Of a stretch of 63,192 nucleotides of DNA, positions 7,509 to 63,192 are shown piece by piece; the first letter of the stretch is position 1, and each line of letters begins with the position of its first letter. Position numbers and translations under genes: made by a program. The DNA comes from Nitrosopumilaceae archaeon (lineage in GTDB: Archaea > Thermoproteota > Nitrososphaeria > Nitrososphaerales > Nitrosopumilaceae), in contig UYNY03000033.1 in the NCBI GenBank assembly GCA_900620265.3, positions 1 through 63,192 on the forward strand. Reading direction: 5' to 3'. The notes beneath the pieces are model-generated. The model did not search any database. It had not been told where the DNA came from and saw only the letters and a list, made by a program, of their open reading frames with translations.

Positions 7509-8778
7509 ACCCGGCGAACATCCACCTCTCGTCCAGCCGGAAGAAGTTCCTATAGCTCGTCCTGATGGACGCGCGCGGGGTCGCAAAGGAGCCGCCGCGC
7601 AGCACCTTCTGCCCGGTGAACCACTTGTCGTTGTACTCGTCGAACCCCGACCTAAAGCCCGGGTACCCCGTGAACTCGGAGGCCGTCCACTCCCAGACGT
7701 CCCCTATCATCTGGCGGCACCCGGACGGGCTCTGGCCCGCCGGGTATGATCCTGAGCGCGCCGGCCCCCAGTGGTACGACTCGAGCAGGTTGCACGTCCC
7801 CTGGCCGGGGGGCGCGTCCCCCCACGGGAACGCCAGCTTGCCGCGCTCGGGATCCCAGCACGCGGCCTTTTCCCACTCGGCCTCCGTCGGCAGCCTCTTG
7901 CCGGCCCACCTTGCATACGCGTCCGCCTCGTAATAGCTCACGTGGCATACCGGCATGTCCGGATCCACCTCGTGCTCGCCGGCAAAGTCAGATACGTGCC
8001 ACGCGCCGTCCCTCCTCGTCCAGTACATGGGCGCCTCCCAGCCCTCCTCCCTGACGCGCTCCCACCCGTCGGCGAGCCAGTGCTTGTACGTGCCGTACCC
8101 GCCGTCCTCGATGAACCTTGCAAACTCGCCGTTGGTGACGGGCCGCGTGTCTATCTCATAGTCCTCCGTGTACACCTTGTGCTCCGGCAGCTCGATGTCA
8201 TAGCAGAACCCCCCGCCGGCGTTGCCCATCTCGTATATGCCGCCGGGGATCCTGGCCGTGCCGGCGGCCGCCTCCTCCCCCGCCTCCGGTGGCAGGCGCC
8301 TTGCCGGCCTGTACGCGCCTGCAAGCATGTGCTGGAGGTCGTACACCAGCAGCTCCTGGTGCTGGGACTCGTGGTGGCACGCCGTCTCGACGAGGGCCGC
8401 CTCCCCCGGCGACACCCCGCGCAGCAGCCTCGCCCTGACGCTCTCCGTCACCGAGTCGTAATACCGGAGTATCTCGGCGGTGGTGGGCCTCGAGACCGAG
8501 CCCCTGCTCCCCTTGTCGCGCGGCCTCCCGAACTGCTGGTAGTATGAGTTGAGGTATCCGGACATCTCCTCCGAGTACCGCTCGTACCCGCCGCCGATCC
8601 TCTCCAGCACGACCTCGAATATCCAGCTGACGTGCCCCACGTGCCACTTTGGGGGGCTTGAGTACCTTGCAGTCTGGACCGCATAGTCGTCGGCCTCGAG
8701 CGTCCCGACGAGCTCCAGCGTCCTTGCCCGCGTCCTGAGGAACTCCTCCAGGAGGGGCGCGTACTCGAGGGTCGCCAA
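7486..8778 (-). CDS. egtB: EgtB-type sulfoxide synthase (DinB_2 plus FGE-sulfatase domains)
   Basis: Non-haem iron enzyme that joins hercynine to cysteine or gamma-glutamylcysteine with oxygen to form the sulfoxide precursor of ergothioneine. The DinB-like N-terminal domain holds candidate iron ligands KWHVGH (His46/His49) and HHESQHQE (His136/His140, the H-x3-H pair). The C-terminal formylglycine-enzyme-like domain has YEIDTRPVTNGEFARF, GKRLPTEAEWEKAA and VLRGGSFATP. The 430-residue length is typical and there is no OvoA-type methyltransferase tail, which argues against ovothiol. The TTG start at 8778 is chosen from an AATTATAC element near 8800. No EgtC or EgtE is nearby, so the thiol donor and the final lyase are unknown. 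A SenA-like selenium role cannot be excluded. Confidence 0.87.
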   Translation of the reverse strand: MATLEYAPLLEEFLRTRARTLELVGTLEADDYAVQTARYSSPPKWHVGHVSWIFEVVLERIGGGYERYSEEMSGYLNSYYQQFGRPRDKGSRGSVSRPTTAEILRYYDSVTESVRARLLRGVSPGEAALVETACHHESQHQELLVYDLQHMLAGAYRPARRLPPEAGEEAAAGTARIPGGIYEMGNAGGGFCYDIELPEHKVYTEDYEIDTRPVTNGEFARFIEDGGYGTYKHWLADGWERVREEGWEAPMYWTRRDGAWHVSDFAGEHEVDPDMPVCHVSYYEADAYARWAGKRLPTEAEWEKAACWDPERGKLAFPWGDAPPGQGTCNLLESYHWGPARSGSYPAGQSPSGCRQMIGDVWEWTASEFTGYPGFRSGFDEYNDKWFTGQKVLRGGSFATPRASIRTSYRNFFRLDERWMFAGFRCARDA

Positions 8779-8812
8779 CGCGGCGCCGCCCCGCGCGTTG
8801 GTATAATTGTGT

Positions 8813-10261
8813 TTAGTAGCCGCGCGCAAAGACCGGGACCGACGATGCCCCGGCCCCGCAGACGACGCAGGCGGCCCCGTCCGCGCCGCCCGGGGGCACC
8901 ACCCGTATCTCGGCGCCCGTCTCCTCCTTTACCCTCTCCTCGCACTTGCCGCCCCCGCACCACGCCGCGTAGACGAGGCCCCGCCCGGCGAGCTCGGCCA
9001 GCTCCCCATAGCTGCCCGCCCGGTGGGTCAGCCTGCCCGCCGCCTCCTCGGCCCTTGCCAGCATGGCCCGCTGGATCTCCTCCAGCATCCCGGGGATCCT
9101 CCCGAGCTCGCCTGCCCCGAGCTCGGACCTTGACCTGTCGTACCTCCTTGATATGGTGACCTTTGAGGCCGCCGCGTCCCTCGGGCCCACCTCTATGCGC
9201 AGCGGGACGCCGCGCAGCTCCCAGTAGTTGAACTTGTACCCCGGGGAGAACCCCTCCCGCTCGTCGATCACGGCCCTCACGCCGGCCCCCCTGAGCGCCG
9301 CGAGGGCGGCGCGCGCCGCCCCCGCCACGGCGGCGGCGTCCCCCCTTACTATCGGGACGACCACCGCCTGGACCGGGGCGACCCTCGGCGGCAGCACCAG
9401 CCCGTTGTCGTCCCCGTGGACCATTATCATGGCGCCGATGAGCCTCCATGACACCCCCCACGACGTCTGCCACGCCAGGTGCTCCCTGTTCTCCCTGTCA
9501 GAGTACCTTATGCCGAACGGCCCCGAGAAGTTCGTGCCAAGAAAGTGCGACGTGCCCATCTGCAGCGCCCTCCCGTCGGGCATCACCGACTCGATGGCGC
9601 TCGTGTACACGGCGCCGACGAACTTTTCCCTCTCGCTCTTGTCCCCATGTATCACCGGGATCGCAAGCTCGTCGCGCACGACCGACCCGTAGATCCCCAG
9701 CATTGCGGCCACCTCGTCCCTGGCCTCCTGCTCCGTCGCGTGCGCCGTGTGCCCCTCCTGCCAGAGGAACTCGGACGTCCTGAGGAACGGCTTCGTCCCC
9801 TTTATCTCGGCCCTGAGCGCGGTATTCCAAAAGTTCATCCTCAGCGGCAGGTCGCGCCAGCTCTGTATCCACTTGGAGTACATCGTGTACGCGAGGGCCT
9901 CGGACGTCGGCCTGAGCGCCAGCCTGTCGCCTATCTCGTCGTTTCCCGAGCGCGTGACCCAGAAGACCTCCGGGTTGAACCCCTCAAAGTGCTCCTTCTC
10001 CCTGCCCAGCAGCGACTCGGGGATCAGCACCGGGAGGAAGCCGTTCCTCACGCCCCTCTCGGCGAACCTGGCGTCCAGCGCGCCGCGCACGGCCTCCCAT
10101 ATGGCGTACCCGTCGGGGCGCAGCACGATGAGCCCCTTTACGGGGGCATAGTCTGCAAGCTCGGCCCGGGTGACCACCTGCGTGTACCAGGCGCTAAAGT
10201 CCCCCTCCTTTGCGGCGGTGACGCCGGCCCCCCTGTCCCCGCCCGGCCTAGAGGTCGTCAC
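8813..10261 (-). CDS. proS: Prolyl-tRNA synthetase, archaeal/eukaryal type
   Basis: Charges tRNA-Pro. Class II motif 1 region (NGFLPVLIPE), motif 2 with TSEFLWQEGHTAHAT, and motif 3 GDDNGLVLPPRVAP are all present, followed by an anticodon-binding domain and the archaeal C-terminal zinc module (WCGGGKCEERV and CVVCG) ending in Tyr. No bacterial editing insertion is present. The 482 residues match the archaeal length. The GTG at 10261 is used because the apparent valine start just downstream is GTC and cannot initiate; this start overlaps the upstream small gene by 14 bases, so the two are probably co-transcribed. Confidence 0.95.
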   Translation of the reverse strand: MTTSRPGGDRGAGVTAAKEGDFSAWYTQVVTRAELADYAPVKGLIVLRPDGYAIWEAVRGALDARFAERGVRNGFLPVLIPESLLGREKEHFEGFNPEVFWVTRSGNDEIGDRLALRPTSEALAYTMYSKWIQSWRDLPLRMNFWNTALRAEIKGTKPFLRTSEFLWQEGHTAHATEQEARDEVAAMLGIYGSVVRDELAIPVIHGDKSEREKFVGAVYTSAIESVMPDGRALQMGTSHFLGTNFSGPFGIRYSDRENREHLAWQTSWGVSWRLIGAMIMVHGDDNGLVLPPRVAPVQAVVVPIVRGDAAAVAGAARAALAALRGAGVRAVIDEREGFSPGYKFNYWELRGVPLRIEVGPRDAAASKVTISRRYDRSRSELGAGELGRIPGMLEEIQRAMLARAEEAAGRLTHRAGSYGELAELAGRGLVYAAWCGGGKCEERVKEETGAEIRVVPPGGADGAACVVCGAGASSVPVFARGY

Positions 10262-18610: not shown

Positions 18611-18717
18611 GGGCCGGATCGGCACCCGTCTAAGATAAATACCAACTGTTGCGGGAGGCCTGTCCGGATCTGCCCGCAATATAAATACAAAAATAGTTGT
18701 GGGCGCCCGTCCGCCCC

Positions 18718-20271
18718 GTGGCAGCAGCCCGCATGGAGATAACAGGAAAGGCGCCGTTCTCCCAGCCGGGGACGTACGAGGCGAGGATCTCGATATGCGC
18801 GTCCAGGCCGTCGGAGGCCGACGCAGGGTCCGGCAGGCCCGACTCGGTCTGGAGCGGCGAGTTCCACCTACGGGTCAGGTCCGACGGCACGTTCACAGAG
18901 CAGGTGGGCTCGGCCGCGAACCCGCTGCCGGACCTCTCGGGCGAGGTCTGGGTGGTGGTATCCGATATCTTCTCGCCGCGCAGCTCCGTCTTTAGCATCG
19001 AGGCGGGCGGCCGGCCCGCCCCCCGGGAGGCGGCCCCCCCGGATCCCGGGACGGGGCGCGGCCGGCGCGGCCCCCCCGGCGAGCGCGGGTCCCAGGGCCC
19101 GCAGGGCGAGCGCGGCCTGCAGGGGGCTCAGGGCGAGCGGGGACAGCCGGGCCCCCCCGGCGAGCGCGGCGCCCCCGGGATCCAGGGCCCCCCCGGCGAC
19201 AAGGGCCAGCTTGGGAAGAGGGGCGATACCGGCGACAAGGGGATGACCGGCGACAAGGGCGCCACGGGCGACAAGGGGGACCGCGGCGACAAGGGCGTGG
19301 ACGGCCCGCCGGGGCCGGCCGGCGACAAGGGCCCCACCGGCCCCGTGGGCGAGCGCGGCCCCACCGGGATAAAGGGCCCGCAGGGCCCCGCCGGAGAGAA
19401 GGGCCACACCGGTCCCCCCGGCGACAAGGGACCTGTTGGACTCCGCGGCCCGCCGGGCCCGAAGGGTGACGGCGGCCCCACCGGGCCCCCCGGCGACAAG
19501 GGGCCCCCGGGGCTGCGCGGCGCGGCCGGGATAAAGGGCGAAAAGGGCCCCGCCGGCCCGCCGGGCGACAAGGGGATAACCGGGCCTCAGGGGCCCCCCG
19601 GCGACCGCGGCCCGACGGGGCAGGCCGGCATCCAGGGCGAGAAGGGGATCCAGGGCACCCCCGGCGGAGCAGGCGAGAAGGGCCCGCGGGGCATCACCGG
19701 ATCCCCCGGCGACAAGGGACCCGTGGGGCCCGCGGGCGCGCCCGGCGACAAGGGCCCGACCGGCCCGTCAGGCTCCTCCGGCGACAAGGGCCCCCAGGGG
19801 CCGCAGGGCCCGGCCGGCGCAAAGGGGCTCACCGGGGTACCGGGGCCGCAGGGTGAAAAGGGCGAGCGCGGCCCGGCGGGGGCGCACGGCGACAAGGGCA
19901 TCCAGGGGCCGCAGGGCCCGGCCGGTGAAAAGGGCCCCCCCGGCTCGCCGGGCTCGCAGGGCGAGCGCGGCATGACCGGCCCCCCCGGGGAGAAGGGCCC
20001 CCAGGGGCCGCAGGGGATCCAGGGCCCGCAGGGCGAGCGCGGCCAGCGGGGACCGGCGGGCGCGCCCGGCGACAAGGGTGTGCCCGGCGGGCAGGGGCCA
20101 GTCGGCGAGCAGGGCCCGAGGGGCCCGCCCGGCCCGCCCGGCGAGCGCGGCCAGACGGGCGGGATCACCCCCGAGCAGAGGGCCGTCTTCAAGGACCTCA
20201 TAGAGATGCTCACGGACAAGGGGGTCATCACCACCGAGGACCAGATCCGGCTGATGAGCTACCTTTACTAG
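18718..20271 (+). CDS. Collagen-like protein
   Basis: Encodes 517 residues in three parts. Residues 1-117 form a beta-rich head with no signal peptide or membrane segment. About 121 uninterrupted Gly-X-Y triplets follow (363 residues), then a 36-residue helical tail beginning [14 protein letters not shown]. Triplets such as GDK, GEK and GER recur every few units between GPP, GPA, GPT and GPQ; Lys-Gly-Asp/Glu contacts stabilise bacterial collagens that lack hydroxyproline. The tail could trimerise the chains. The GTG at 18718 follows a TATA element ATAAATA at 18681-18687; the ATG at 18733 is the alternative. The location of the protein is unknown since no export signal is seen. It may mediate host or cell-cell contact. 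Confidence 0.9.
19069..20166 (+). repeat. Gly-X-Y coding repeat array
   Basis: A 1.1-kb stretch encodes the collagen triplets without a break. The DNA repeats a nine-base theme of the type GGCGACAAG followed by GGCCC-rich codons. Near-identical blocks recur (for example GGGCCGCAGGGCCC at several places), so slippage, recombination and assembly collapse are all possible here. Confidence 0.9.
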
Positions 20272-55027: not shown

Positions 55028-56800
55028 ATGCCTGGCTGGGGCGAGGAGGCGGGCCGCCTAAAGTGGTCCAGGAGGTGGGACGCCGAGCTGGAGTGGGACC
55101 CGCCCGCCGCCAGGTGGTTCGCCGGCGGCCAGATAAACGCCTCGTACAACGCGCTAGACGTCCAGGACCCGTCCCGGACGGCGATAATCTGGGAGGGCGA
55201 GGACGGCTCCGTGCGCAGGATCACCTACGGGTGGCTGCTTGACCAGGCCTCCAGGCTGGCAGGCGGCCTGCTCTCGATGGGGGTCGGCAGGGGGGACCGC
55301 GTCGCCATCTACCTGCCGATGATCCCCGAGCTGCCCGCCGCGATGCTCGCGTGCGCCCGTATAGGCGCCGTCCACACCGTCGTCTTCTCGGGGCTCGGCG
55401 CCGCCTCGCTGCGCTCCCGGATAGCCGACTCGGGTGCCCGGGTGCTGGTGACGGCCGACGCGGGGTACCGGCGCGGGGCTCGGATCCGCCTCAAGGAGGC
55501 GGCCGACGAGGCCGTCCGCGGGACCGGGGTGCGCACCATAGTGGTGCGCAGGACGGGGGACGCGTCCCTGGGCCCGGGGGACACGTGGTGGGACGACCTC
55601 GTCTCGGGCTCGGCGCCCGCCGATCCGGTCCCGCTTGAGAGCTGCCACCCGCTCTTCATCCTGTACACGTCCGGGACCACCGGGATGCCAAAGGGGATCC
55701 TGCACGGGACCGGCGGCTATCTGGTCCACGCCTGCTCGACGTTCAGGCTGGCGTTCGGGACGCGGCCCGGGGATATCTACTGGTGCACGGCCGATCCGGG
55801 GTGGGTGACCGGCCACAGCTATGTGGTGTACGCCCCGCTCTGCTGCGGGGCCACCCAGGTGATGTACGAGGGGGCGCCCGACCACCCGGACGCCTCGCGC
55901 ATGTGGCAGGTGGCCGAGCGGCACGGCGTCACGATACTGTACACGACGCCGACGGCGATACGGATGCAGATGGCATCTGGCATCCTGCCCGGATCGCACG
56001 ACCTCTCCGCGCTGCGCCTGCTCGGCAGCGTCGGCGAGCCGCTCGGGGCCCCCGCCTGGGCGTGGTACCGCGACGAGGTCGGCGGCGGCAGGTGCCCCGT
56101 GATAGACACGTGGTGGCAGACGGAGACGGGAGGCATGATGGTGGTCGACCCGCCCGGCGGCGGCACCCCCGAGCCCGGCTATGCCGGCAGGCCCGTCCCC
56201 GGCATCGACGTGCGCGTGGTGGACGACGGCGGCCGGCCCGCCCCGGACGGCGAGCGCGGGAGGATCGTCGTGTCAGGGACGTGGCCGGGCATGATGATAG
56301 GGGTCTGGGGCAGCGAGGAGAGGTACGCGTCGTACTGGTCGGGCGACCCGCCGGTGTACCAGGCCGGCGACTATGCGGTGCGCGACGCAGAGGGGCGCAT
56401 ACGGATACTCGGGCGCGCAGACGACGTGCTCAACGTGGCCGGCCACAGGATTGGAACCGCCGAGATAGAGGCGTGCGCGGCATCGCACCCCGGGGTTGCC
56501 GAGGCGGCAGCCTGCGGCGTCCCGGACCCGGTGAGGGGCCAGTCGATAGCCGTCTTTGCGGTCCCGAGGGGCGGCGGGTTCGAGCCGGGCGAGATAAGGT
56601 CGCTCGTGAGGCGGGACGTGGGGCCGGTCGCCTCGCCCCGGATAGTCTGTTCCGTGCCTCGCCTGCCAAAGACGCGCAGCGGCAAGATAATGCGCCGGAT
56701 ACTGGGGGCGCTCGCCGCCGGCTCCGACCCCGGCGACACGAGCACGCTTGAGGATCCGGGCGCCGTGGAAGACGCGGCAAGGGCCCTGCGCGGCGCCTAG
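55028..56800 (+). CDS. AMP-forming acetyl-/acyl-CoA synthetase
   Basis: Activates acetate, propionate or a related acid to its CoA thioester. The 590 residues include the ATP loop [39 protein letters not shown] and the C-terminal [13 protein letters not shown] whose lysine is the acetylation-controlled catalytic residue. This is not the ADP-forming 3-hydroxypropionyl-CoA synthetase known from thaumarchaea, so it probably has a role in acetate or propionate salvage. The ATG at 55028 follows GTTTACAAGC. It stops on CTAG shared with fen. Confidence 0.92.
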
Positions 56801-57807
56801 AGCCACTGGTCGAGGCTCTGGCTGCGCCGCCTCTGCGACCCCTCGAGCTTTGCGAGGGCCTGGGACGCCCTCTCCTCCGAAAAGTCGCGCGACGCAAGGT
56901 ACGAGACCAGCCCGGCGCGGTCCACCGGGCCGTGCTCTATCTCCGGCTCCGCGACCTCCGGCTCTAGGAAGATCCTGCGTATCTCGACATAGTCGGTCCC
57001 CTCCAGGCTGATCTTTGGGATCTCCTCCAGCCTGCCGTGCCTCTTTACGAGCTTTATGGCAGTCTTGGGGCCGATCCTTGCAAACCCGCCTGGGTTAAAG
57101 TCGGTGCCGATGAGTATCCCCACGTCGACTAGCTGCTCCCTTGTGATCCCGAGGGTCGCAAGGGTCCTTGTGGAGTCTATGATCTCGGGCGGAGCCTCGA
57201 TGTACGTGCCCCTGCCCGGCACGCGCCTCCTGCCGCCGTTGGTAAAGTTCCTCGCCAGCCTGGCGGCCCCGAATAGGACGGAGTCAAAGTCCTGGCTTGC
57301 CGCCGCGTACGCCGTCCCCTGGCGCGTCATGGCGGCCGCCGTCGCCTCCCCCTCGGAGGGCGCATCGACGCACGGTATGCCGAGCAGGCCGAGGATCTTC
57401 TTTGACTCTGGGATCATGCCGTCCTCAAGCGAGGTCGTCTGCTGGGCGTACTTTCGCGCCGACTCTTGATCCCCCTCGGAGACGGCCCGCTCGTACTTTG
57501 CGGCCGCGTCCCTCTTGAGGCTCCTCCTCCGCGCGATCTCGGCCGACTTGAGGGACGGCGGCCTGCCGTCAAAGACGTAGACGGGGCGGATCCCCTTTGC
57601 AAGGAAGCTGAGGTTCCTGTAAAAGAGGCCGCTCAGGTGGCTGGTGGTCCGGCCCCGCGTGTCAGTCAGCGGCTCGCCGCCGGGCCCCCTGATCCCGGCG
57701 AGGAACTGGTAGATCGCGTTGTACGCGTCGATGGCGACGACCCTCGAGGAGAACGCGGCAAGGTCGGTCCTCTCGCGCGAGACCAGCTCCCTCAGGTTCA
57801 GCCCCAT
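56797..57807 (-). CDS. fen: Flap endonuclease FEN-1
   Basis: Cuts 5' flaps during Okazaki-fragment maturation and repair. The 336 residues show the N-terminal nuclease domain ([27 protein letters not shown]) and the internal domain (GVPC-type [28 protein letters not shown]), the helix-hairpin-helix [15 protein letters not shown], and a C-terminal PCNA-binding box QSLDQWL. The ATG at 57807 follows ACAAATAAGG on the minus strand. All metal-binding acids are in place. It converges with the acyl-CoA synthetase gene on a shared CTAG stop. Confidence 0.95.
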
Positions 57808-57876: not shown

Positions 57877-57962
57877 GCCGGGGTAGCCAAGTGGTTAAGG
57901 CGGCCGCCTCGAGAGCGGCTACGCGCAAGCGTGCAGGGGTTCAAATCCCTTTCCCGGCGCCA
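57877..57962 (+). tRNA. tRNA-Ser (anticodon CGA), CCA encoded
   Basis: The 7-base acceptor stem GCCGGGG pairs with TCCCGGC. The anticodon stem GCCGC/GCGGC carries the loop CTCGAGA with CGA at 57910-57912. The long variable arm (TACGCGCAAGCGTGC) is typical of serine tRNA, and the T-arm is GGGGTTCAAATCCC. CCA is encoded at 57960-57962. No intron is seen. GGATTTATTACGG at about 57845-57857 is the likely promoter. It lies next to the AT-rich restriction-modification locus. Confidence 0.97.
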
Positions 57963-58111
57963 AAATAGTATTGTACCCAGCCATGAAGTGATATTAAGGT
58001 ACTGTGCCGTCCGCACCCCACGGGGCTCCCCCGGACCGCCCGCACCTCTCCTGGCATGGGGAGGGTCGGATTGTCCCCGTAAATATAGCTAGCGCGCGTT
58101 GCGTGATCCGG
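57963..58111. other. Gap between tRNA-Ser and the restriction gene
   Basis: These 149 bases hold no convincing gene. They contain a short AT-rich patch after the tRNA and TAAATATAGCTAGC near 58080-58093. No copy of the tRNA 3' end that would mark an attachment site was noticed in the window. Confidence 0.5.
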
Positions 58112-61100
58112 CTAGTCCAGCGTCGTATCGTAAGATTTCGTGTCGACATAGCTGTCAAGCCCCCTGCGCCTTGGCTTCCATTCCTTTGGCTCAAATACGG
58201 GAGGTAGGGCATCGATAATTTTATCAGATTCAACGGCAACGTGCACCATTCTGCGTATTATTGAGCAAATGTCAATGCCGATGCATGGATTGTTTACAAT
58301 ATCGCTCTCCTTGTCTTTGGTAATTTGGTATCTATCTATAATCCATTCAAGTGGTGATCTACCATTGATCATATAGTTGGTTTTAGGCAACTCTTGAAAC
58401 AATACATTATCGTTAATTCTAATCATAGATTTATCTCTAATGTTTTTTCGTTTGCCATCTTTGACAATTATTTTATTTCCCCATAATAATTTTTTAAATT
58501 TATCTGGATTAAATTTTGGTTTTATCGGATATTTTTCACAGTTCTCATAATTAAGATGAATTGCCGCTAGTGACCTTCCGGCTTTTTTAAATTCATGAAA
58601 TTCAGGCGCCATTGGTATATGCGGTAAATCTTTTGTAAGATTACTTGAAAATTTATTTTTATATCCTGAATGATGTAAAATACCATATACATAATAAAAA
58701 ATGTCTTCTTTTGTAATCTTATGATCTTTATAATATTTACGATATTCTTCAAGAGTAGAGTCAAGTATGTTGTCCATTCTGTTTTTGCCATTGTATACGT
58801 ATAACGGAAAGCATTGACATGCAGCGTTAAGTCCTAAATCTGCTATATTATTTGTCATGATTGCTGAAAATACACTTGCCGATTTACCTGAAATAACTAT
58901 CATTAAATTTTTTGTATCTTTATTTGGAAAGAAATGTGAAATTCTATATTGCCTAACATTAAATATTCTATCATAATATAGAAATTGTTTAAAGAATGGC
59001 CGATATGTCGCTATTCGAATTTTCTTAACATCAAATTTTTGTTTCCCCTTTTTTTGACGCTTAACAGTTAGCTCTTCATCCCATTTTCCTCTTGTTAAAT
59101 CTTGCACAATCATTTTTGGATTCATTTCATTATAATACATTATATGTTTTTTCATATTTTCTTCAAGTTTTACTTTTGATGCATTATATGCCCACATATC
59201 TCTAGCAGTTGCAACACCTCTTGAATATTCTCTAAATATAACCGAATTATCTTTATTAGATCTGCCCTCTATGCTACCCATTGGGACATATTCATAGAAT
59301 TCATCGTTACGTTTATCGAGCCAATCATTATGTCTGTCTATATCGATCTCTGTCCAGTCGTCTATGCCTTCTATTGATTTCCATTCTGATATCATGTCAA
59401 TTTTTTGTTGTCTATCAAAATAATTTCCAATATCTTTATAATATATTTTGGCAGGCCTTTTTTTACCTTTTTGTGAATTTTTCACAAGAAATGTAATAGC
59501 TACAGGAGCTCGAGAACCTGATCCAAATATTTTACCACCTTCTTTCTTTGATTCTTCTCCTTTAGTTCTCTGATTTCCTCTTAGATCAAGGCACCATATC
59601 TCATCAAATTCTTCTACTAATGAAGCTCGCATTCCAGATGCGGCATCTGATCTCATGAATGAACCGTTTGTAACAATCCCAATAACTCCACGATCTGATA
59701 TACGATCTGACATCCATCTAATCGATCGAATATATGAATCATAAATTGAATTAACGTTTCCTTTTGTAATATTTTTTAGATATGTATCCTTTATTCTGTT
59801 ATCAATCTCTGGATACTTTGTGTTTGCGTTATCATCACCAAATGATTTTTGTCCTGCAGAATATGGAGGATTGCCTATTATTACATGTACATGTGCCCAT
59901 TTTAGATCTTGGATCTGTTTGTTTACTTTTTCAAATGCACCTGATAACTTTTTTTGAATTTTTCTGGCTTCTTTATCTACTCTGTATTTAGGATGATGAT
60001 TTAATGTGTCAGTAAAATTTGCATGTTTAAATGGTAAAAGGCTGTCTAAACTCATTGCCTGTCTGAATACCATCTCAATGTTAACGGCTGCCACATAATA
60101 TGCGAGTAGAGTTATTTCGTTTGCCCATATATCGTTTTGATACTTGGCCATGATCTTTGAAGGCTTTATTAGACCAGATTCTAGCAACCGCGCCACAAAA
60201 GTACCGGTCCCTGTAAACGGATCAAGCACTTTAACGTTTTGACAGTTAAACCCCGTTCCAAAGTGCCTTCTAACTAGTGACTCTGTGCTGTGTATTATAA
60301 AATCTACCACTTCCACTGGAGTATACACAATCCCCTCTGACTCCTGTTTTTTCTTGTCATAACCTGCCAAAAACGAGCCATAGATCTTCTTTATATATGC
60401 CTGTTTCTGATCGTTTTGAAGTACTTGTACCTCCCTAACTACTTTGTCAAAGTAGTCCTTGTATGGCTTAAGCTCCTGCCTGAACCCGATCCTCCCTGTC
60501 GCGTCATCAAGTACCGCGGATACCGGATTTCTGGCCCTGAACTCCTTCGGAAACAGTGCCTCGAATATTCTGGAGAGCACTAAGTGTTGGGCCAGTACGG
60601 CCATTGCCTGCTGCCTGTCCACAGATTCGTTGATAACCTGCCTCAGTCCGTCTGTAAGGCCGTCTAGCACTGATTTCATGTTGGGGTTTTTCGACCTCTT
60701 CATGATCTCGGCAATCTCGCGGGCCGTCCTGCCGAGCTCCTCCGCCTTTGTATCATAATACTGGAGGTTGACAATCTTGTCGACCATGGCGGTCTTCAAC
60801 TCACCGAACAGCTCCGAAAGCGGTTGCTTGTTAAAGCTGCCCATCCAGATGATCTCCGCGTTGAACCCCTCAATACCGCCCGGTCCACTGCCGCCGGGCC
60901 CGAGCTGGATGCGGCTGAGCTTGGCCTCCATCGTCTCGTCATGGCTCCGGATTGCGTTGATTATGTCCCAGAGCGGGCGCCAGGGCTTGTTCTTCCTGTC
61001 CCGGAACGACTCTGCCAGCGACATCCCCTTGGGCTTTACGATCGGGACGATGATGTATCCCATCTCCTTCTTGCCTGCCTTCCGCATGACGCGGCCCACC

Positions 61101-63017
61101 GCCTGAATCACGTCGACGCGGGACTTGCGGGGCTGGAGAAAGATAACCCCGTCGAGGGCTGGCACGTCGACCCCCTCGGACAGACACCTGGCGTTGGAGA
61201 GGATCCGGCACTGCCCCCTGTCATCACCGCTGTCCCGGAGCCAGTCCAGCTTGCGGTTGCGGATGCTCGACTTCATGGTGCCGTCCACATGCCGGACGGT
61301 CACGGTGTTGTTAGTGGGCTCCCTGTACCGTCCCTCGTAATCTGCCACCGACTTTGCAAAGCTGCGGTCCGTGGACGACTTGCCGGCCTCCCTTGCCACC
61401 TTTTCGGCTGTACTGGCGGACTCGTCGGGCGTCTTGTCGGATCCGGCGTACGCACCCGTGAAGGACTTTGACGCCTTTATGCTGTTGGTAAACGCTATGA
61501 CGCTCTGCAGTAGCTCCCGCCGCTCCTCGTTGCCCTCCTCGTCCGCCCCATAGTTGAGGCCGTGCCAGACGGCCGCCAGCAGCACCCTCTCGTCGATGGT
61601 GCCCTCCGAGTACCCCTCCTCTGACTCGTCCATGAACCGCTCAAGGTCCTCCTCGGGGACCACCGGTACCCGGATCCCCACGTTGGCAAGGTTCCCGTCT
61701 GCCACCGCCCTCGCGAACGAATAGTGGAAGAACCGCTTTCCATAGTCCTCCTCGTCATCCATCGAGAACTTGGCGTTCTCCTCCTCGTCGCCCCCCTTGT
61801 AGACGCGCGGCGTGGCGGTCATGTAGAGCCGCTTCTTGGCGGGGATCCTCCCGTTGTCGTGCACCAGACGGAAGGGCGAGTCGTCCTTTGCGCCAGTCGT
61901 CCTGTGGGCTTCGTCGCAGACCATGAGGTCAAACTTTATGCCCTCCAGCCGGGGCACCGACTGGTACGTGCAGAACACGACGCCCATGTCCCCGTCTGCC
62001 CTTGCGGCCATTCTGGATCGTATCTGCCCGGGATCGGTGGTTGCCGGATACGGGAGATCCAGCACCGAGCCGTCGTCGATCTCTATGGTGTCATCGGAGC
62101 ATACCACCACGTAGTGGTGGCTGATGTTGGCATGCCGTGACCACTCGTCCAGGGTCTGGTGGATGAGCGAGATGGAGGGGACGATATACAGCGCCCACCC
62201 CCCCCCCGACCATTTTTTCAGCTATGGTCATGGCAGTCCTTGTCTTGCCGGTACCACAGGCCATGATGAGCTGGCCCCGGTCCGCCCCCTTGAACCCGCC
62301 CACCACGCTTGAGAGTGCCTCCTTTTGGTGCTCTCGCAGATCCTGCCTCTCGGCCCGGGCAGCCCTGCGGTCGAGGCTCCAGTCCTGTATGTGGCTGGAG
62401 CGCAAATCGTGATAGCCAATAACGGAGCAGTTCGCGTCCCTGAGCATCTTTGCGGCGTTGCTGGATAAATCCCCCCCACTGTGCACGAACATCAGGTGCA
62501 TCTCCCTCTTGTGCTTTTTTGAGAGCGCCTCGGCCCTTGCCGCCAGGGAATGGTCCTCAAGCCGGGTCTGAGACTTGTGCTTTTTTGAGAGCGACTCAGC
62601 CTTTGCCACCAGGCCTTTTACCTCCGACTGGTGCACCGTCTGCGTCCTGTCCTCGTGGTACTTGCACTGGATCGCGCACCATGTGCCGTCCTTTTCCGTC
62701 GCCACAAGGTCGATCCCGGTATCCTGACCGTCGTTGTGCTTCCACTTCTTCCACATCTCGACCTTCTCGAACCGTTTTCCAAGTACCGGGTCGTTTTCAA
62801 GGAACCACTTGGTGAGCCTCTCAAACGCATCGCCCTTTGCCCTTGTGGTCTTGAGGGCCGCGATTGGACCCAATACGTCGTCAAGCGTCCGGGCCTTGCT
62901 CAAGCCCGGCCACCTGCCATCCTTGCAGATCCGTCTCCGGCCTTTTGGCCATTGACATCCGTACGCGCCGTCCCCGCCGACTCTTCCTGCATCGCGCTCG
63001 GGTCTGAAAATGCTCAT
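58112..63017 (-). CDS. Single-polypeptide (type ISP-like) restriction-modification enzyme, frame broken at a C10 run
   Basis: About 1630 residues in two frames. Order on the minus strand: Mrr-like nuclease (DGQDTGIDLVA then CAIQCKYHED), SF2 helicase (CGTGKTRTA, MVCDEAHRTTG, YMTATPRVYKG, QAVGRVMRKAG), coupler, N6-adenine methylase (DPFTGTGTFVARLLE, IIGNPPYSAG), target-recognition region. This is the layout of type ISP enzymes such as LlaBIII. The frame shifts at ten G (plus-strand C10, 62198-62207): nine would join the N-terminal frame to WALYIVPSISLIHQT. ATG at 63017 is used, TTG at 62903 is possible. The part 58230-60440, methylase and target recognition, is strongly AT-rich, unlike the rest. 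It should cut and methylate DNA in one chain, if intact. Confidence 0.88.
58230..60440. other. AT-rich segment inside the restriction gene
   Basis: Base composition drops sharply here; for example only 11 of the 60 bases 58681-58740 are G or C, against about two thirds in flanking lines. It covers the methylase motifs and target-recognition region but not the nuclease-helicase part. This points to recent acquisition or replacement of that half by recombination. Confidence 0.9.
62198..62207 (+). repeat. Mononucleotide run C10 at the frame break
   Basis: Ten consecutive C (ten G on the coding strand) occur just after the helicase Walker A region. The two parts of the restriction gene are in register only if one base is lost. 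The run is either a sequencing/assembly length error or a slippage-prone switch. Confidence 0.9.
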
Positions 63018-63131
63018 GTTATAAGTTGATCCGGGCCGGGCCGCCGTAATGCCCCTGGATTTTATTCCCTGCCCTCTCTGGCCGGGTGGGTTGGAAGGCC
63101 GGCATGCTAGATAAAAAAAGTGGGGTGGACA
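63018..63131 (-). promoter_or_regulatory. Upstream region of the restriction gene
   Basis: Contains GGAATAAAATCC around 63057-63068 on the minus strand, about 45 bases before the ATG, and TTATAA a few bases before the ATG at 63017. Either could be the promoter; the second would imply a start further inside. No other gene is seen in these 114 bases. Confidence 0.4.
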
Positions 63132-63192
63132 CTGTCTCTTATACACATCTGACGCTGCCGACGAGCGATCTAGTGTAGATCTCGGTGGTCGC
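63132..63192. other. Nextera adapter sequence with i5 index (not genomic)
   Basis: CTGTCTCTTATACACATCT at 63132-63150 is the transposon mosaic end. GACGCTGCCGACGA follows at 63151-63164, then an 8-base index GCGATCTA (reverse complement TAGATCGC, the N501/S501 i5 index) and GTGTAGATCTCGGTGGTCGC to the window end. This is unremoved adapter from an Illumina Nextera library and should be trimmed. Confidence 0.99.

Follow-up and report, generated by a model that had tools for sequence, protein, structure and literature searches.

At one end of the window, by which we mean the whole 63,192-base stretch analysed here (contig C33 of a 2.0-Mb Nitrosopumilaceae genome in 113 contigs; archaeal rRNA genes are present), a type ISP-like restriction-modification gene lies next to a tRNA-Ser gene. 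The features of the locus are as follows.

56797..57807, minus strand: flap endonuclease (FEN1-like) gene, a neighbour of the tRNA-Ser that is kept in the genus (comparison of genus loci)
57877..57962, plus strand: tRNA-Ser (CGA), the integration target (ARAGORN; Rfam)
57951..57965, plus strand: attL, TTCCCGGCGCCAAAA, at the 3' end of the tRNA; the other copy (attR) is at 132426-132440 of contig C31 of the same genome (G000), adjoining a tyrosine integrase
58112-63017, minus strand: the whole type ISP-like restriction-modification gene (ORFs and Pfam domains)
58112..62110, minus strand: 3' part of the gene, protein P0001 of 1332 aa, with the remaining helicase, coupler, methylase and recognition domain (ORF, Pfam, PDB matches)
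58283..59239, minus strand: type ISP C-terminal specificity domain (Pfam PF18135, 5.9e-78)
58330..60040, minus strand: AT-rich block, GC3 0.16, residues 691-1261, comprising methylase core and recognition domain (GC3 segmentation, codon usage)
58814..59221, minus strand: segment with recognition loops IV-VI, residues 964-1099 (alignment to a 5ffj chain; LlaGI loop positions from PMC4872093)
59609..60391, minus strand: N6-adenine methylase domain (Pfam PF02384, 6.9e-8), with motif I DPFTGTGTF and motif IV NPPY (motifs by sequence)
60040..60676, minus strand: transition zone, GC3 0.49, residues 479-691 (change-point and ramp fits; 20-codon counts)
60407..60760, minus strand: ISP coupler domain (Pfam PF22240, 1.4e-14)
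62091..63017, minus strand: 5' part of the gene, with Mrr-like nuclease and first half of the helicase motor, up to the frameshift (ORF; Pfam Mrr_cat_2 1.4e-17, ResIII 1e-6)
62198..62207, minus strand: G10 tract (C10 on the plus strand), the frameshift site, just past the Walker A motif GTGKT; nine Gs would leave the frame intact
62376..62795, minus strand: Mrr_cat_2 nuclease domain (Pfam)
63132..63192, no strand: Illumina P5/Nextera adapter remnant at the contig end (sequence)

As judged by Pfam, the gene encodes an Mrr nuclease, an SF2 helicase, an ISP coupler, an N6-adenine methylase and a Type_ISP_C domain, in the single-gene order nuclease, SF2 helicase, coupler, N6 methylase, target recognition domain (TRD) of the type ISP family, here spread over two frames as assembled. 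P0001 matches LlaGI (3e-203) and LlaBIII (1e-195) in the PDB, with homology to both over about 1,290 residues (the LlaGI alignment spans residues 11-1303). The start codon, an ATG, is at 63017-63015; the last 61 bases of the window are adapter and not genome, and the ORF at 62091-63191 runs into them (translated ...VYKRQ). While a first-pass annotation of this DNA had rightly placed a type ISP-like gene with these five domains at 58112-63017, it had treated the gene as a single frame of 1,632 residues. The gene is not one continuous polypeptide: ORFs 62091-63191 and 58112-62110 are in different frames, with the break at the G10 tract. Membership of the type ISP gene family is clear; that the assembled allele gives an active enzyme is not clear, and its out-of-frame G10 is predicted to yield, as assembled, a truncated nuclease and no full enzyme. 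Elsewhere in the genome, a second, distant AT-rich Type_ISP_C ORF lies near the end of contig C26 (14904-15995), with no methylase in view. The window also holds a 524-aa ORF (18697-20271, plus strand) with tandem repeats of 81% GC at 19056-20034, in units of 9, 18, 36, 72 and 108 bases; these units resemble collagen-type Gly-X-Y repeats, and the product may possibly be a surface or host-facing protein.

The G10 tract is the only G/C run of 8 or more within the window, and the loss of a single G restores the frame. It could be a phase-variable switch that slips between G9 (on) and G10 (off) in sub-populations, which is compatible with the explanation of the gene's mosaic composition given below. 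The homologue in G005 (L005; another genus, a single-contig genome) likewise has G10 just past the same Walker A motif, is out of frame and would be in frame at G9, and a second restriction-modification gene of the query genome, an MmeI-like gene on contig C8 (2029-3999), has a G11 tract at its 5' end. However, these genomes have many runs of G10 or longer (about 26 places here and 231 matches in G005), most of them intergenic, so that the coincidence with the G005 homologue is suggestive only. Moreover, most of the other homologues compared have no tract at the Walker A position, and a homopolymer miscall could have produced G10 in the one consensus sequence. We put phase variation forward tentatively, as a possibility somewhat on the improbable side. 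If the tract does vary, this would be a restriction-modification gene with a poly-G switch in an archaeon; a non-exhaustive search of the literature found no such case. We consider it unlikely that the gene is instead a recent pseudogene, fixed in the off state, a reading that concerns the frameshift and not the mosaic. The frameshift as assembled fits it, and inversion or frame changes likewise break up the homologues in G006, G147 and G111; the 4 kb downstream, partly AT-rich, is nevertheless still open with its motifs intact, so any loss of the gene must be very recent.

FEN1 and tRNA-Ser(CGA) adjoin across the genus. In an AT-rich relative (G139), a nitroreductase gene follows about 300 bases after the tRNA-Ser, uninterrupted (order tRNA-Ser then nitroreductase, locus L245). 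In the query genome the nitroreductase is on C31, where TTTTGGCGCCGGGAA and a 556-residue tyrosine integrase (Phage_integrase, 7.6e-10) lie between it and the contig end. While a 20-base tRNA pattern gave no second att site, the shared core is 15 bases long and is seen on C31 by the nitroreductase. This 15-bp repeat of the tRNA 3' end has exactly two copies in the 2.0 Mb, one at the tRNA-Ser of the window and one on C31, which are in direct orientation once C31 is turned; the C31 copy sits, beside the nitroreductase, at the boundary that is uninterrupted in the relative. A small protein gene by the nitroreductase appears to keep the relative's order. A tRNA-integrated element is marked by direct repeats of a tRNA 3' end that are unique in the genome, by an integrase within one of its ends and by a relative in which the site is uninterrupted, all of which are seen here. 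The restriction gene thus belongs to the cargo of such an element, at its tRNA end; the element is visible as two ends of about 5 kb and 3 kb, its middle being on neither contig. That the gene stands beside a tRNA gene had been recorded before; the part played by this tRNA-Ser(CGA) as integration site, with a 15-bp att pair and an integrase, had been missed. At another locus (L041 in G111, 8594-8998), a tRNA-Val lies 0.3 kb beyond the end of a type ISP gene, with its 3' end towards that gene, as in the window; no att repeat was found by this tRNA-Val on its contig.

The composition of the gene changes strongly along its length: GC goes from about 0.62 down to 0.28-0.35 and back up, the window outside the gene being at 0.666. 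In the best segmentation of P0001 (change-point fit, with borders at residues 479, 691 and 1261), GC3 is 0.84 before residue 479, 0.49 at 479-691, 0.16 at 691-1261 and 0.51 after. With a BIC of 1251.6 vs 1276.1, a ramp that has its centre at residue 571 (about 60400) describes the profile better than a single step. Thus the GC shift that the first-pass annotation had put at about 60440, and the return towards the 3' end, are both there, the single joint being replaced by a ramp from about 60676 to 60040. The comparison of codon usage between the two halves that it had suggested bears out its expectation: the first 440 residues follow the resident genome (r=0.91, resident statistics being computed from window genes), while the AT-rich block follows the AT-rich family members (r=0.89) and runs against the resident genome (r=-0.68). 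Amino-acid composition shifts along with codon usage between the helicase half and the AT-rich block, which supports two mutational histories within one gene, at the level of both synonymous codons and amino acids. Uniform amelioration as the cause is incompatible with GC3 values of 0.84 and 0.16 in one gene.

The drop in GC3 from 0.84 to 0.16 is the largest among the homologues measured. As compared to 45 GC-rich bacterial homologues, the query is about six standard deviations away both in the methylase-minus-helicase difference in GC3 (-0.60 vs a mean of -0.04, sd 0.09) and in the recognition-loop difference (-0.70 vs a mean of -0.17, sd 0.09). Bacterial homologues generally show a weaker dip over the recognition loops: GC3 over residues 950-1110 is lower than helicase GC3 in 44 of the 45 GC-rich and 18 of 20 AT-rich bacterial homologues, so that part of the query's dip may have a cause other than transfer. 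Segments of these homologues that are equally variable (residues 161-280, 401-440 and 1201-1240) show no dip, and the methylase parts of other GC-rich homologues keep a GC3 of about 0.64-0.71. Since AT-rich homologues have a nearly flat, low GC profile, the domain as such does not impose the dip, and intrinsic AT-richness is ruled out as its sole cause. AT-rich cores with sharp edges occur in two GC-rich relatives of the same genus, G133 (residues 957-1168) and G147 (residues 948-1100), and coincide with the mapped loops IV-VI; the query's AT-rich block extends further, over the methylase core as well. These loci are related, and the tally is not one of independent events; as far as the sequences go, import of recognition segments looks recurrent in these relatives. 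Most sampled loci of the genus are at about 33% GC, G147 and G133 being near 57-61%; a sponge symbiont, Ca. Cenporiarchaeum stylissum, has 66% GC (PMC6697440), and the window may come from an archaeon of this type. A strong mosaic is also present on a Limnothrix MAG contig (L068), with GC3 of 0.77 in the helicase, 0.32 in the methylase, 0.33 in the recognition core and 0.74 at the C-terminus.

In trees, the query is sister to G006 both for the helicase (100/98) and for coupler plus methylase (100/99), and the two also pair for the methylase inside the AT-rich block (94/92, not starred); for the recognition domain, grouping the query with G006 is not rejected (p-AU 0.136). Trees that place the AT-rich block with the sampled AT-rich lineages are rejected (p-AU 9e-6), which rules these lineages out as donors, and a distant origin of either half is likewise ruled out, every domain falling inside or next to the archaeal set. 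A search for a donor of the block among 400 genomes of the class, viral contigs, phages and plasmids gave no match above about 52% identity. Of the marks of a recombinant mosaic, the parts do differ in composition; neither conflicting phylogenies of the parts (helicase and methylase are both sister to G006) nor an identifiable donor was found. The shared sister and the rejection of the AT-rich lineages mean that any exchange took place among related, unsampled alleles: if it happened, its partners were alleles of a single clade, represented in the sample by the query and G006 only. These results do not support reading the AT-rich source of the first-pass proposal as a distant one. One shared phylogeny, and the same shift in GC-rich relatives, had been named there as telling against a swap; the former is largely what we see, and GC-rich relatives do dip likewise, though more weakly. 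What survives of the proposal is its kind of reading, since a recombinational exchange of the specificity half is still the best explanation, and composition is the one ground for calling it recent.

We infer, with a probability of roughly 0.6, that this is a type ISP restriction-modification gene on a tRNA-Ser(CGA) element, made mosaic by exchange between related alleles; it is possibly phase-variable as well. The nuclease-helicase part would have kept the composition of the GC-rich host, and the methylase core and recognition domain would come from a related allele that had formerly resided in an AT-rich host, this being the direction of exchange that we favour. Two or more crossovers or conversion tracts during homologous exchange could leave the ramp through the coupler and early methylase and the shorter return near the 3' end. 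From its homologues, the enzyme would be expected to recognise a short asymmetric site through its recognition domain and methylase and to methylate a single adenine; where DNA is unmodified, the helicase-like motor would translocate, with cleavage by two converging enzymes. Because the methylase-recognition part of a single chain sets both protection and attack, its exchange would change specificity without uncoupling the two: self and non-self marking would be altered together, with motor and nuclease kept. The common sister G006, the rejected AT-rich sisters, the lack of a donor above about 52% identity and the general, milder dip all speak against exchange, and a ramp is not the trace expected from one clean swap.

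Some of these observations suit a single gene lineage with no swap, in which recombination-linked GC drive raised the freely recombining nuclease-helicase part and left the diversifying methylase-recognition part behind in hosts that were becoming GC-richer. Uneven enrichment of this kind accounts for the one phylogeny common to the domains, for a ramp in place of a step and for a dip that GC-rich hosts generally show, with its centre at the recognition loops. However, it requires that one half was fully converted and the other almost not at all (0.84 vs 0.16), and both the dip-free, equally variable segments of the bacterial homologues and the methylase GC3 kept by the other GC-rich homologues argue against it; we rate it as a minority explanation, with the odds well against it. 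That the assembly joined an AT-rich and a GC-rich type ISP gene of a mixed community into a chimera is very improbable: while the assembly is fragmented and this contig ends in adapter, a chimera requires two in-frame joints plus an intermediate zone (the reading frame continues through both), the exact stretches common to the AT-rich and GC-rich homologues compared are at most about 20 bases, and the milder dip is also present in the single-contig genome G005.

Exchange of recognition segments is a standard idea for how restriction systems change specificity; to our knowledge, direct traces of it are few. If exchange between alleles is the right reading here, composition serves as a dye, an AT-rich stain lying on the mapped recognition loops in several GC-rich archaea of an AT-rich family. 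A much broader picture, which we regard as doubtful, would have the type ISP genes of GC-rich Nitrosopumilaceae travel on tRNA elements, repeatedly take up methylase-recognition parts from AT-rich kin and slip on and off at a poly-G tract past Walker A; were it true, this would be an archaeal restriction system that is both phase-variable and specificity-shuffling. Related loci show further rearrangements. In G006 (L033, 7687-12840), an inversion interrupts the type ISP gene and puts the methylase end and the recognition domain on opposite strands; the break has a 6-base core, CGAGAC, common to both sides and is flanked by two direct copies (1.7 kb) of a radical-SAM-like gene. The inversion is possibly an invertible specificity switch; within the window we found no counterpart to such a TRD inversion switch. 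In G020, two versions of the recognition domain with 81% DNA identity lie on two contigs that end in the same sequence (L045 on C4 and L046 on C2), a layout that an expressed gene and a second cassette with a common 3' end would produce. Finally, a second type ISP gene in G005 (L035, 8755-10082) has an insert of about 1.3 kb in its methylase part, between residues 622 and 626.

Of the known systems, tRNA-integrated elements with tyrosine integrases share with this one the direct repeat of the tRNA 3' end, the integrase inside one end and the uninterrupted site in a relative, the element here being seen from its two ends only (about 5 kb and 3 kb). The poly-G phase-variable restriction-modification genes of Campylobacter and Neisseria likewise have a G tract in which one base decides the frame (PMC6321876, PMC6789123); the query, in contrast, is archaeal and known here from a single assembly with one tract length. 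In the type I and type III systems of Helicobacter pylori, domain movement and TRD exchange similarly recombine recognition segments while the enzyme core stays; there, however, near-identical TRDs are seen in different genes, whereas in the query the evidence is compositional, with no donor known (PMC3983042, PMC3077401). The closest architecture is that of LlaGI and LlaBIII (PDB 5ffj and 4xqk), which have the same order of Mrr nuclease, SF2 helicase, coupler, gamma-class N6 methylase and TRD; unlike them, the query is archaeal, chromosomal at a tRNA, strongly mosaic in composition and frameshifted at G10 in the assembly. LlaGI and LlaBIII are about 80% identical overall and 58% identical in the methylase-TRD unit (PMC4872093), and this concentration of divergence in the methylase-TRD part provides a precedent for reading the query gene as a product of exchange.
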